This document shows positions 4,456-21,767 of a DNA stretch of 48,665 bases, in pieces (position 1 is the stretch's first letter; each line of letters opens with the position of its first letter). The translations under genes and the position numbers were made by a program. Source of the DNA: an uncultured Burkholderiales bacterium. Lineage in GTDB: Bacteria; Pseudomonadota; Gammaproteobacteria; Burkholderiales; Burkholderiaceae_C. Under the pieces are notes generated by a model. It saw only the letters and a program-made list of their open reading frames with translations. It ran no database searches and was not told where the DNA came from. Where the stretch lies: NCBI GenBank assembly GCA_903896615.1, contig CAITYM010000131.1, positions 1-48,665 on the forward strand. The letters run 5' to 3'.

Positions 4456-5268
4456 TTAGTTCGGGCGGTGCATCTCGCGTTGGAATATTTGAAGCGCCTG
4501 AGCCTTAATTTTAATAAACTCCGGCGCACTCACTGACTCAGCCAGGCGGGGTCGAGCCATATCAAAATCTAATAACGCAGCGATCTTAGTAGGGCGACGG
4601 GTAAGAAGTAAGATTTGATCTGCTAAAAAAACGGCATCCTCTAAATCATGGGAGACGATAACCATGGTAACGCCTGTCTTAAGATTTGTTTCTTGAAGCT
4701 TTTCTCTGATGAAGAGTGTCATCTCAAAGTCGAGTGCAGAAAACGGCTCATCCAAAAAAAGCACTTCTGGTTCACAGGCCAAGGCCCGCATAATTGATGT
4801 AGTTTGTTGTTGACCACCAGAGTGCTCGTAGGGGTATTGTTTTAAGTTAAACTTAATTTCAAATAAATCGATTAGCTCCTCAACTCTCTTTTGCACCTGA
4901 GCTTTGTCCATCCCCAACCGTTTGAGTGGATATGCAATGTTGTCCCAAGCCGTCATCCATGGAAAGAGGGCGTCCCTGTAGTTTTGAAAAACGTATCCAA
5001 TTTTAGTTTGCTCGAGTGTTTTTCCGTCAAAGAGGACTTGACCTGAGTCAATCTCCATAAGTCCAGCCACCATATTGATCAGAGTCGATTTGCCGCAACC
5101 ATTAGGGCCGAAGACGGAGACGATTTTGCCTTTCTTTATATCTAGATTGAAGTTTTCATAAAGTGTTATGCCAGCAAATTGTTTATGTAGGTTTTGAATC
5201 GTAACGTGCGCACGCTTTGAGCCTGGTTTTGGGGCGATGGCTGGGCGCGAATCAAAAATGCTATTCAT
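4456..5268 (-). CDS. ABC importer ATP-binding protein (nitrate/sulfonate/taurine family)
   Basis: A 270-aa nucleotide-binding subunit of the SsuB/TauB/NrtD group. Walker A is FGPNGCGKSTL, the Q-loop is VFQNYRDALFPW, the signature is a variant HSGGQQQTTSIMRAL where LSGGQ(R/K)QR is usual, Walker B is VLFLDEPFSALDF, and the switch His is in VSHDLEDAV. I chose the ATG at 5268 because GGAAAGG lies about 8 bases ahead of it. A TTG at 5274 would overlap the permease stop by four bases. It is last in a tight three-gene operon with the permease and the binding protein. The substrate cannot be named from sequence, but the sigma-54 promoter ahead of the operon suggests a nitrogen compound. Confidence 0.9.
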   Translation of the reverse strand: MNSIFDSRPAIAPKPGSKRAHVTIQNLHKQFAGITLYENFNLDIKKGKIVSVFGPNGCGKSTLINMVAGLMEIDSGQVLFDGKTLEQTKIGYVFQNYRDALFPWMTAWDNIAYPLKRLGMDKAQVQKRVEELIDLFEIKFNLKQYPYEHSGGQQQTTSIMRALACEPEVLFLDEPFSALDFEMTLFIREKLQETNLKTGVTMVIVSHDLEDAVFLADQILLLTRRPTKIAALLDFDMARPRLAESVSAPEFIKIKAQALQIFQREMHRPN

Positions 5269-5270
5269 GT

Positions 5271-6035
5271 TCAAGCCTTTCCGCCCCAGTGAATCAGTCG
5301 ACGTTCAATCATCAAAAATGCGAGGTTTAAGAAGTAACCCAAAGCGCCCGTAATAAGTATGGAACTGTACATGTCTTTGATATTGAAAACTTGTTGGGCG
5401 TCGATGATCCTGTGGCCTAATCCGTTTTCAGAGCCAATAAACATCTCGGCCACAATCACAATGACGAGTGCTAGAGATATCCCTGTGCGCAAACCAATAA
5501 ATGTTTGGGGAAGACTCTCCATTAACAAAACATCTTTAAATATATGGAAGCGACTAACCCCCATCGTTTGGGCAGCCATGACCCGTGTTTTCTTGGCGTT
5601 CATGACCCCATAGGCACTGTTGAAAATAATAACCAATACAGCTGCAAATGCAGCTATGGCAATTTTGTTTATATCTGTGATGCCAAAGATGAGCATGAAC
5701 AACGGAATTAACGCAGATGAAGGTGTGGAGCGAAAGAAATCAATTAAAAACTCAACACTCTTATAAATTGGGGGGGAACTACCTAGCATGACCCCTAATG
5801 GAACACCCATTAAACTTGCGCCTAGAAAAGCATAAAAAGTTCTCGCAATTGTTGCCCATAGATCTGGAAATATGGAGCCCGTCGCAAACACGTGGAACAT
5901 GTATGCGACTGTTGTGCTGGGTGCGGGTAAAAGGGTTGCGCTAACCCATTTCGCAGAAACAGCTGTAGCCCATATTAAATAAAGAAAAGCAGGACCAGCA
6001 AGCGGAAGTAGCTTTTTCAGAAATTGAAACCGCAT
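5271..6035 (-). CDS. ABC importer permease (SsuC/TauC-like)
   Basis: A 254-aa inner-membrane protein with about six hydrophobic segments (for example near residues 10-28, 65-85, 110-145 and 185-205). The cytoplasmic coupling loop has the binding-protein-dependent permease EAA-like pattern, MAAQTMGVSRFHIFKDVLLMESLP followed by IGLRTGISLALVIVIVAEM. This is typical of nitrate/sulfonate/taurine-type permeases. It begins three bases after the stop of the binding-protein gene and ends two bases before the ATPase start, so the three are surely co-transcribed. It would form the membrane channel of the importer, probably as a homodimer. Confidence 0.9.
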   Translation of the reverse strand: MRFQFLKKLLPLAGPAFLYLIWATAVSAKWVSATLLPAPSTTVAYMFHVFATGSIFPDLWATIARTFYAFLGASLMGVPLGVMLGSSPPIYKSVEFLIDFFRSTPSSALIPLFMLIFGITDINKIAIAAFAAVLVIIFNSAYGVMNAKKTRVMAAQTMGVSRFHIFKDVLLMESLPQTFIGLRTGISLALVIVIVAEMFIGSENGLGHRIIDAQQVFNIKDMYSSILITGALGYFLNLAFLMIERRLIHWGGKA

Positions 6036-6038
6036 ACT

Positions 6039-7031
6039 TTATTTATAAAATAGTGCGTTTGCGGAAATAGAATTTTCAAAAACTTTTTTTTCTGCAAAAA
6101 TATCAAATAACTTTTGCAAAGCATGCACATCTGTTGGCTTGACCTCTGTGTGATCAATATATCCGCTGAGGGGTACCGCTTTTGCAAGTTCTCCCTCTAT
6201 GGCTGTGTATCCTGTTAAATATTTGTTTGCTTTAAGTCCTTCCTTTCTCACATATGCAAGACCGGCAGAGTAGCCGCTTAAATAACCAGGCACAAGAGAG
6301 GCTTTATTTTTGAGTGTAGTCGCCGTTAACGCAGCAGCGCCGCCGATCCAGGGCAGGTTATCTTTAAGTACATATTTTGTAACGACGCCTGTGGCCAGAG
6401 TGCGTGATATTTTTTCTTGAGTTCCAATTACGCCAGTTGGCTCTAAGATATAGGCTGCCTCAACTTGACCTGCTGATAGAGAGGGCAAAATTTGAGCGAT
6501 CGGTAGCTCTACAACTCTTACATCCTTGGCACCACCCCCTAACATTACTGCTTTTGCGAGGGTTACATTATTTATGCCCGGTCCGCACGCCACTTTCTTT
6601 CCTGAGAGATCAGAAATGTTTTTAACAGTTGAGCCAATTGGAACGATGACTTCATCAAGTACATACTTGTCATTTGCAAAGTTAACGCATGTAAATTTGA
6701 TATTTCCTGGCTCCTGGGCATCGGCCAAGGCTAAAGCTGTAATTGCAACTCCATTTGCGCATCCATCAATTCGCCCAGCCATCATTGCCTCAACGACTTG
6801 ACTTGGGCTTGCAAATTTAACAGCTTCTACTGTTACCCCAGCGTCCTTAAAGAGGCCTCTCTCCATGGCTGTAAAAAAAGGCAAACCTGCAGCAATAGGC
6901 CAATAGCCGATCATCAATTTTTTATCATCTGAAGCAAGTGCAGGTGTACCAAAGCGAAGCGTTGCGACACTTACCCCAAGTTTTACAGCACTTATAAGGC
7001 TTTGTCTTTTAGAGGGTTGAAATGTATTCAT
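6039..7031 (-). CDS. ABC importer periplasmic binding protein (NMT1/SsuA-like)
   Basis: A 330-aa solute-binding protein. An N-terminal signal peptide runs to about residue 33 (VATLRFGTPALA-SDD). The mature part begins KKLMIGYWPIAAGLPFFTAMERGLFKDAGVTVE and includes GKKVACGPGINNVTLAKAVM, the usual ligand-pocket layout of the NMT1/THI5/SsuA family. Ligands in this family range over alkanesulfonates, taurine, nitrate, pyrimidine precursors and aromatic acids. It is first in the operon, the usual place for the most highly expressed component. A full sigma-54 consensus promoter lies 140 bases upstream, so the ligand is probably a nitrogen source. That last point is inference. Confidence 0.88.
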   Translation of the reverse strand: MNTFQPSKRQSLISAVKLGVSVATLRFGTPALASDDKKLMIGYWPIAAGLPFFTAMERGLFKDAGVTVEAVKFASPSQVVEAMMAGRIDGCANGVAITALALADAQEPGNIKFTCVNFANDKYVLDEVIVPIGSTVKNISDLSGKKVACGPGINNVTLAKAVMLGGGAKDVRVVELPIAQILPSLSAGQVEAAYILEPTGVIGTQEKISRTLATGVVTKYVLKDNLPWIGGAAALTATTLKNKASLVPGYLSGYSAGLAYVRKEGLKANKYLTGYTAIEGELAKAVPLSGYIDHTEVKPTDVHALQKLFDIFAEKKVFENSISANALFYK

Positions 7032-7170: not shown

Positions 7171-7186
7171 TGCAACTGCTGTGCCA
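7171..7186 (-). promoter_or_regulatory. Sigma-54 (-24/-12) promoter for the ABC importer operon
   Basis: Read on the minus strand the site is TGGCACAGCAGTTGCA, which matches all 16 positions of the consensus TGGCACRNNNNTTGCW. It includes the GG doublet near -24 and the GC doublet near -12, at correct spacing. The predicted transcription start is near 7160, giving a leader of about 129 bases before the binding-protein ATG. Sigma-54 promoters need an activator bound upstream. NtrC would fit a nutrient importer, but no clean NtrC palindrome lies within the nearest 200 bases on that side. Confidence 0.8.
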
Positions 7187-7210: not shown

Positions 7211-7727
7211 CGCAGAGGACTCTAAATTTAAATACGCTTACCCCTGTGTTGTTATATTCAATGCGATTTAGTTGGACTCGATAAGGGTAACGAGAATTTG
7301 AGTAGATTTCAGTCTGAGTCTTGGTGAATTAAAAGTCAAAAAATTTAGTATCAAACAACACTTTTTTAGTGCACGCGCACCAATTTTAGTAGTCTTTAAG
7401 ACGGTCAATCCGTGAATTTAATAATTTACCGGGTCTTTTTTAACTGTTTTTATGGAATCAGTACTCAGAAAATTAGCTGAAACACATGACTTTAGCTAAG
7501 ACTTAAAGTCAGCAGCATCAGGGGAGTGCCAACCGACACACGCACCTGTTGGAGATATTGCGCTGCAGCACTCAATCTGTGTACCTGGGTTGTCGGCTGT
7601 GTCATCCATTTTTGGTCAAGATCTCTGGTAAGTGGTTCAAGTGGGTATGGCTCATATTAATGAGCAATCATTGTCGGACCTTCATTTGAGTTGATTTACT
7701 TCTAAAGTAACTATTTTTGAATCTATT

Positions 7728-7744
7728 TGCACTAATATAGTGCA
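7728..7744. promoter_or_regulatory. NtrC-type binding site
   Basis: TGCACTA-ATA-TAGTGCA is a perfect 7-bp inverted repeat and fits the NtrC core GCAC-N7-GTGC. Its centre (7736) is about 107 bases upstream of the start predicted from the sigma-54 site at 7817-7832. This is the distance of an NtrC site from the start at the enterobacterial glnAp2 promoter (about -108). I see only one strong copy close to the promoter. Confidence 0.7.
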
Positions 7745-7798
7745 CGTGTTGAATTTTTGAGTTCAAAAAACTGATTCATTATTAACAAAATGTTGGGT

Positions 7799-7817
7799 AT
7801 GCGTAAGGCTTACGCAT
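7799..7817. repeat. 19-bp perfect palindrome touching the -24 element
   Basis: ATGCGTAAG-G-CTTACGCAT is a perfect 9-bp inverted repeat around a single central base. Its last base is the first base of the -24 element of the plus-strand sigma-54 promoter, so a protein bound there would sit against the polymerase. It has no T tract and lies before the predicted transcription start. A DNA operator is therefore more likely than a terminator. Confidence 0.6.
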
Positions 7818-7832
7818 GACACAGTTCTTGCT
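7817..7832 (+). promoter_or_regulatory. Sigma-54 (-24/-12) promoter for the 126-aa orphan gene
   Basis: TGACACAGTTCTTGCT matches 15 of 16 consensus positions. The one mismatch is the second G of the -24 GG doublet, an important base. The predicted start is near 7843, leaving a 29-base leader that contains a strong GAGGGAGGGG ribosome-binding site ahead of the ATG at 7872. The NtrC-type palindrome at the classical distance supports the call. Confidence 0.65.
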
Positions 7833-7871
7833 AGATATAAAAACAATAAGTATTAGAGGGAGGGGCAAATC

Positions 7872-8252
7872 ATGTCGATGCAAACCAGTCACGTGGAATT
7901 GGTAGGGAAACACGAAGTTCAATATGCCATAGTTACCTTGTCTAGAGATAAAGAATTCTTAAAGTTAATGGAGTACGAGCTCCCCGAGCTTGAGGAGTCG
8001 CTAGAACTGCGATTTGCTCCTCAAACAATTTTTCTAAAGCAATCCCTGAATAAGTCTTTAGATAAATACTATTTATTGATTGAAATTCAAATAGGCTCCA
8101 AAAAAATTAACTTCAACGTGTTAGTTAATGATTCTGGCCCAGCCTTCATCATAGAAACTCCCAAGCAACTCTATCCGCTGCTTTCAGCCAAGCGAATCAG
8201 GGAAACCCTTTATGATTTAGCGGTTGAATTTTTTGATATCAGGTATGCGTAA
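7872..8252 (+). CDS. Uncharacterised 126-aa cytoplasmic protein under probable NtrC/sigma-54 control
   Basis: I do not recognise this protein. It has no signal peptide, membrane segment or Cys motif. The predicted structure mixes strands (VQYAIVTLS, YYLLIEIQI, KINFNVLVND) with helices (EFLKLMEYELPELEESLEL and the C-terminal SAKRIRETLYDLAVEFFDIRY), like a small alpha/beta domain. The gene has a strong GAGGGAGGGG ribosome-binding site and ends before a paired hairpin. It stands alone between the divergent ABC importer and the convergent aminotransferase. The NtrC palindrome and sigma-54-like promoter suggest induction under nitrogen limitation. A role in nitrogen metabolism or its regulation is possible, but no enzymatic motif supports any specific function. 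Confidence 0.75.
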   Translation: MSMQTSHVELVGKHEVQYAIVTLSRDKEFLKLMEYELPELEESLELRFAPQTIFLKQSLNKSLDKYYLLIEIQIGSKKINFNVLVNDSGPAFIIETPKQLYPLLSAKRIRETLYDLAVEFFDIRYA

Positions 8253-21609: not shown

Positions 21610-21759
21610 TGCTCCTGCGGGGAGCAAATCGCCAATTAAGTGGCACAATATCAATCAACTTAGGCTACATCCGGCCCAAGTCGCGTCTGCAAGCCGGCTA
21701 AGTCGGTGTAGCAGAAGGTTTTCTTCAACCAGCTAATGTTCCCTGCAGGGGAACGGAGG
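21610..21759 (+). ncRNA. Structured sucA 5' leader, candidate sucA RNA motif
   Basis: The leader can fold into several stems: TGCTCC/GGAGCA (21610-21626); a nested stem of GCTACA (21664-21669) with TGTAGC (21707-21712), enclosing CCGGC (21671-21675) with GCCGG (21693-21697); and GTTCCC/GGGAAC (21738-21754), which ends one base before the GGAGG ribosome-binding site. A conserved 'sucA RNA' is known in Burkholderiales upstream of sucA, often involving the ribosome-binding site, and this leader fits in position and style. I could not compare it with the published consensus. Confidence 0.6.
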
Positions 21760-21767
21760 TCAGCGCT

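Follow-up and report, generated by a model that had tools for sequence, protein, structure and literature searches.

Organization of the locus

The sequence analyzed here (the window) is a 48.7-kb stretch of DNA from an uncultured Burkholderiales bacterium (GCA_903896615.1, CAITYM010000131.1, positions 1-48,665), whose whole genome comprises 3.18 Mb. It contains a gene for a 126-aa orphan protein, which is preceded by an NtrC-type palindrome, a sigma-54-type -24/-12 element and a ribosome-binding site, and which is divergent from an ABC transporter operon (Table 1). The inverted repeat TGCACTA-ATA-TAGTGCA noticed in the original prediction is present and perfect, and the sigma-54 match placed 72 bases downstream of it was recovered with 11 of 12 informative positions. 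With C7831 taken as the -12 base, the predicted transcription start lies 107 bp from the palindrome center, in agreement with the distance proposed before, and the ribosome-binding site, which had been described as strong, is a GGAGG located 8 nt before the ATG at 7872. An AT-rich stretch (ATATAAAAACAATAAGTAT-like, 7835-7854) lies between the -12 region and the start codon and is similar within subfamily A (see below). Elsewhere in the window, a sucA RNA motif (21681-21765) is found before a 955-aa ORF.

Table 1. Features of the 126-aa gene locus and of the divergent operon (positions in the window)
Feature	Position	Strand	Basis
ABC transporter ATPase	4456..5274	-	Sequence
ABC transporter permease	5271..6035	-	Sequence
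NMT1-like periplasmic substrate-binding protein (divergent operon, gene 1)	6039..7031	-	Sequence
Sigma-54 promoter of the divergent ABC operon, perfect match TGGCACAGCAGTTGCA	7171..7186	-	12/12 informative positions
Conserved NtrC-like site GCACTAAAAAAGTGT, upstream of the divergent ABC promoter	7358..7372	-	7/8 core
NtrC box (putative enhancer) TGCACTAATATAGTGCA	7728..7744	.	Core kept in L049, L050 and L051; fits published consensus
IHF-like match AATCAGTTTTTTG in the spacer	7764..7776	-	Weak
Sigma-54-type -24/-12 element TGACACAGTTCTTGCT, second -24 G replaced	7817..7832	+	Element in 14/16 family loci
Predicted transcription start	7843..7843	+	Placed 12 bp downstream of C7831 (-12)
Shine-Dalgarno GGAGG	7859..7863	+	Sequence
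126-aa orphan protein gene	7872..8252	+	ORF, homologues, coding test

Only three sites in the window reach 11 of 12 sigma-54 positions, namely 7817 (+), 7186 (-) and 30304 (+). The second of these qualifies the earlier description of the 126-aa gene as standing alone, because it is a perfect sigma-54 promoter belonging to the divergent ABC operon. This 16-mer, overlooked in the original prediction, is identical in three related loci (L049, L050 and L051). The NtrC-like site upstream of it also has a 7/8 core in L049 and L050. Its counterpart in L051 has a 5/8 core and a spacing reduced by 1 bp. Between the palindrome and the ABC promoter, a small Cys-containing ORF (7433-7576, minus strand) was observed. 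It is 63-64 aa long and intact in G026, G076 and G089, whereas in this genome an in-frame TAG breaks it; diverged copies occur elsewhere in 5 genomes.

Distribution and genomic context of the 126-aa protein family

The family profile detected 16 loci in 14 of the 84 genomes of the genus and none in 398 other genomes drawn from the order, with up to 10 first-look candidates scored per genome; a search of the protein database yielded 20 proteins. Subfamilies B (9 loci, support 99/95) and C (2 loci, 100/100) were well separated in the phylogenetic tree, and the remaining 5 loci formed a weakly supported subfamily A (77/52). Judging from the sequences, the family is coding and under purifying selection: dN/dS ranged from 0.056 to 0.273 in six of seven pairs, the seventh being saturated. 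The predicted fold is alpha-beta-alpha, and possible known counterparts are the folds of frataxin/CyaY and of the ribosome hibernation factor (HPF / protein Y). Neither the frataxin/CyaY family nor the HPF family was among the 7 families matched by any of 24 members at E values up to 1.

Four subfamily A loci are divergent from the NMT1-like ABC transporter, and in two of the genomes an amidase is present as well. Each of the 9 subfamily B loci comes after the same amidohydrolase cluster, for which Pfam was consulted on one member; an FAD monooxygenase cluster lies near seven of them, and transport genes are frequent. Subfamily C adjoins a [2Fe-2S] protein and a partner that we take to be xanthine-dehydrogenase-like, and one further locus (L091) has a uroporphyrin methylase nearby, an enzyme often encoded in nitrite assimilation loci. 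Going by family names, the recurring theme would be that nitrogen is released or taken up from organic compounds, and we suggest, with low confidence, that the 126-aa protein is a cytoplasmic helper of nitrogen scavenging. Apart from the window, three subfamily A stretches (L094-L096) contained canonical sigma-54 promoters. The remaining 12 family stretches (9 of subfamily B, 2 of subfamily C and L091) had none, and the neighbors there therefore give no independent sign of sigma-54 control.

The NtrC palindrome and its position

The palindrome conforms to the NtrC box given in the literature as (T)GCAnnAnnnTnnTGC(A) (PMC8743547), and the consensus sequences given in PMC8743547 and PMC4987338 agree with the box of this genus. 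TGCAC-N7-GTGCA sites occur four times in the 3.18-Mb genome (control, 0), so that the palindrome alone is modest evidence. Its center is 81 bp upstream of the -24 T, with a spacer of 72 bp between palindrome and element, compared with distances of 60-91 bp and 124-135 bp at the control promoters described below. The original prediction had looked to conservation upstream of homologues, and this was found for near relatives: in three subfamily A genomes (G026, G076 and G089) the core is kept amid diverging flanks at nearly the same distance (69, 81, 82 and 83 bp from the element in the window and these relatives), and the -24/-12 element recurs in 14 of the 16 family loci. Among shuffled family regions, 0.2% reached an 8/8 core. 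The spacer also contains a weak match to what we take to be the IHF pattern; it is present in L049 (AATCAAGGTCTTG) and absent from L050 and L051.

Beyond these four genomes the picture is less complete. In subfamily B, 7 of the 9 loci have an NtrC-like site 25-28 bp upstream of the -24 (L082, L083, L087, L088, L089, L090 and L092), mostly in degenerate form, with a perfect core only in L092; none that was convincing was seen in L084 and L085. Such a distance is unusually near for an activator and close for usual looping, and the site could be a governor or belong to another regulator. L091 has a 7/8 NtrC-like site 97 bp upstream, and the two subfamily C loci (L086 and L093) have neither an NtrC site nor a -24/-12 element. 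These gaps are real weaknesses of the regulatory case.

The joint layout was searched for as GCAC-N7-GTGC followed, after 55-85 bp, by TGNCAY-N6-TGCW. This gave 62 matches in 53 of the 84 genomes of the genus and 1 match for the reversed control, and the window site was the only match in its genome; the layout is thus beyond what chance would produce. Among the 30 matches to which loci had been given, and which were inspected, the third base of the element is G in 25. Of these, 22 lead to an ORF of secreted type, 1 to what is presumably glnK and 1 to a presumed urtA-like ORF (both judged by how the proteins begin); 1 is unclear. Among the 22 secreted-type matches, 17 have an amtB match within about 3 kb downstream; the other 5 could not be placed in this way. 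We also observed that the NtrC/sigma-54 promoter upstream of amtB meets a secreted-type protein gene first, mostly of about 250-290 aa (L155-L157, L159, L167-L170 and others). The 5 inspected matches without G comprise 3 members of the 126-aa family and 2 antisense sites inside ORFs, and a fourth family member among the 62, that of G089, was recognized by position.

The box might serve only the divergent side, either the Cys-containing ORF or the transporter operon, with the 126-aa gene as a bystander. An NtrC box is able to act on both sides, and the divergent operon does own a perfect sigma-54 promoter. However, that promoter is some 540 bp distant and comes with an NtrC-like site of its own (7/8 in three of four loci), the box stays 69-83 bp from the plus-strand element in four genomes, and subfamily B repeats the element in stretches without the ABC operon. 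We consider this explanation highly improbable.

Conservation of an altered -24 region

The second G of the -24 GG doublet is thought to be essential, and it is the sole mismatch of the window element, which reads TGA. In 14 of the 16 family loci the element was found at 10-11 of 11 positions when the third base was ignored, the runner-up sites reaching 7-9. GG is present in none of the 14: the third base is T in 7, A in 6 and C in 1. The original prediction regarded this mismatch as its main weakness; it is instead a conserved trait of the family, which is new here and, in our view, the most interesting part of the case. With only the third base ignored in the scan, TTGCT at correct spacing is found in 14 of 14 elements. 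The TG before the third base, the C after it and T10 are likewise invariant, and the columns just upstream need 3-6 changes on the tree. Although the pattern behind these counts itself required TG, C and TTGC, an unforced scan chose the same sites. The third base needs three changes on the tree, too few to tell a base that is free to vary from one selected against G.

In another system, a GG to TT change at -24 cut transcription more than 40-fold (PMC3665592), and given this loss the absence of the second G in all 14 elements counts against a sigma-54 reading. Two explanations without sigma-54 use were considered. One is that the altered base turns TTGGCA into TTGACA or TTGTCA, the -35 box of a sigma-70 promoter; 13 of the 14 elements do have A or T there, and some loci make passable -35/-10 pairs by eye, such as TTGACA-N17-GATCAT in L085. 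Against this, TTGCT is kept in 14 of 14 elements although a sigma-70 spacer would be free, no conserved -10 hexamer was seen by eye at 16-18 bp, and the NtrC box stands at enhancer distance, so that a sigma-70 promoter appears unlikely. The other is a decayed sigma-54 promoter that is out of use, as the loss of the -24 G and the scattered occurrence of the gene (14 of 84 genomes) might suggest. Yet the element is otherwise kept across proteins that are only about 25% identical, and the coding sequence is under purifying selection, which leaves decay with very little probability.

A whole-genome scan with TGNCAY-N5-TTGCW gave 53 sites (reversed control, 15), of which 18 have G at the third base. 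Several of these 18 presumably precede urtA, flagellar genes and a sigma-54 activator, judging from the sequence starts. Since the pattern demanded TTGC, promoters of the glnK-amtB type fall outside its 53 sites. Among the sites without G, only the window site combines an intergenic position before an ORF with a perfect NtrC core; a second one (L137) is intergenic and before an ORF, but its core is 6/8.

glnK-amtB promoters and the regulators encoded in the genome

The 30 amtB loci contained 21 TGGCAY-N6-TGCW promoters; the 9 loci without this pattern include those of the four subfamily A genomes, which were examined separately. Seven of the 21 have no room upstream, and in the other 14 a perfect GCAC-N7-GTGC was present 10 times, at 60-91 bp (5.2% of shuffles reached 7/8). 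TGGCTCGTTCTTTGCT in L111 is outside the pattern and was not counted. In the four subfamily A genomes, that of the window included, a perfect box lies 124-135 bp upstream of a weaker TGG[CT]CT element before glnK-amtB, farther out than the boxes of the 126-aa family. In this genome the element is TGGTCTGAATTGTGCT, with similar ones in the other three; these elements are tentative, as they were picked among several candidates with 9-10 of 12 positions. glnA of this genome has TGGCATAAATTCTGCT, and a perfect NtrC box looked for there was not seen, the best being 7/8. The boxes at glnK-amtB, together with the fit to the published consensus, indicate that NtrC of this genus very probably uses a GCAC-N7-GTGC-type box. 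NtrC itself is encoded about 1.8 kb after glnA, with a score above the family cut-off, and RpoN is also encoded, with a normal RpoN box (CARRTVAKYREALR).

Proposed regulation of the 126-aa gene

It is quite likely that the 126-aa gene belongs to the NtrC/sigma-54 nitrogen-limitation regulon and is controlled by the following looping mechanism. At low glutamine, phosphorylated NtrC would bind 7728-7744, loop to sigma-54 RNA polymerase at 7817-7832 and open the promoter, and a transcript from about 7843 would encode the cytoplasmic alpha-beta-alpha protein. The divergent ABC operon would probably be expressed simultaneously from 7186-7171, under sigma-54 control. The 126-aa element combines a perfect -12 (TTGCT) and a T-rich spacer with an altered -24 (TG[ACT]CAY), a change that could lower resting occupancy and impose a strict need for strong NtrC activity. 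The original prediction described the site correctly and is probably also correct on regulation by nitrogen limitation: the conserved box and element, the presence of RpoN and NtrC and the parallels at glnK-amtB support it, while the degenerate sites of subfamily B and the absence of both elements in L086 and L093 speak against it. If true, freshwater Burkholderiales would respond to nitrogen limitation with one more protein family, an orphan one, and its regulation would offer a testable handle on what it does.

A more tentative idea, which we would not yet favor over its negation, is that these elements form a class of sigma-54 promoters working without the second -24 G and selected for a weak -24, a perfect -12 and a T-rich spacer. 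Such promoters would mirror those of glnK-amtB and reserve a genus-specific protein for deep nitrogen starvation. If so, the -24 GG rule for predicting sigma-54 promoters misses a conserved class, and a natural promoter series would display the trade-off between -24 and -12 strength.

Comparison with known promoters

The promoter of the 126-aa gene resembles the NtrC-activated glnK-amtB promoters in its NtrC box at enhancer distance, its -24/-12 element, the NtrC and RpoN encoded in the genome and its nitrogen-related neighbors. The two differ in where the element is weak: the 126-aa family lacks the second -24 G and has a perfect TTGCT, whereas the glnK-amtB promoters of the genus have GG, but a T at the first base of TTGC is seen in none of the 21, nor in any of the 4 from subfamily A genomes. 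Combining a weak -24 with a perfect -12, or GG with a poor -12, may be alternative means of preventing excessive strength in a sigma-54 promoter.

Of the 29 intergenic sigma-54 sites that Table 3 of PMC3844500 gives for Salmonella, 28 read TGG, the exception being clpP, TGTCACGTATTTTGCATG, which was predicted within a ChIP-chip-enriched region. This site is like the 126-aa family in its substituted position, its perfect TTGC and its T-rich spacer. It is a predicted site and a lone exception (1 of 29) in that table, whereas in the 126-aa family the substitution is the rule (14 of 14).
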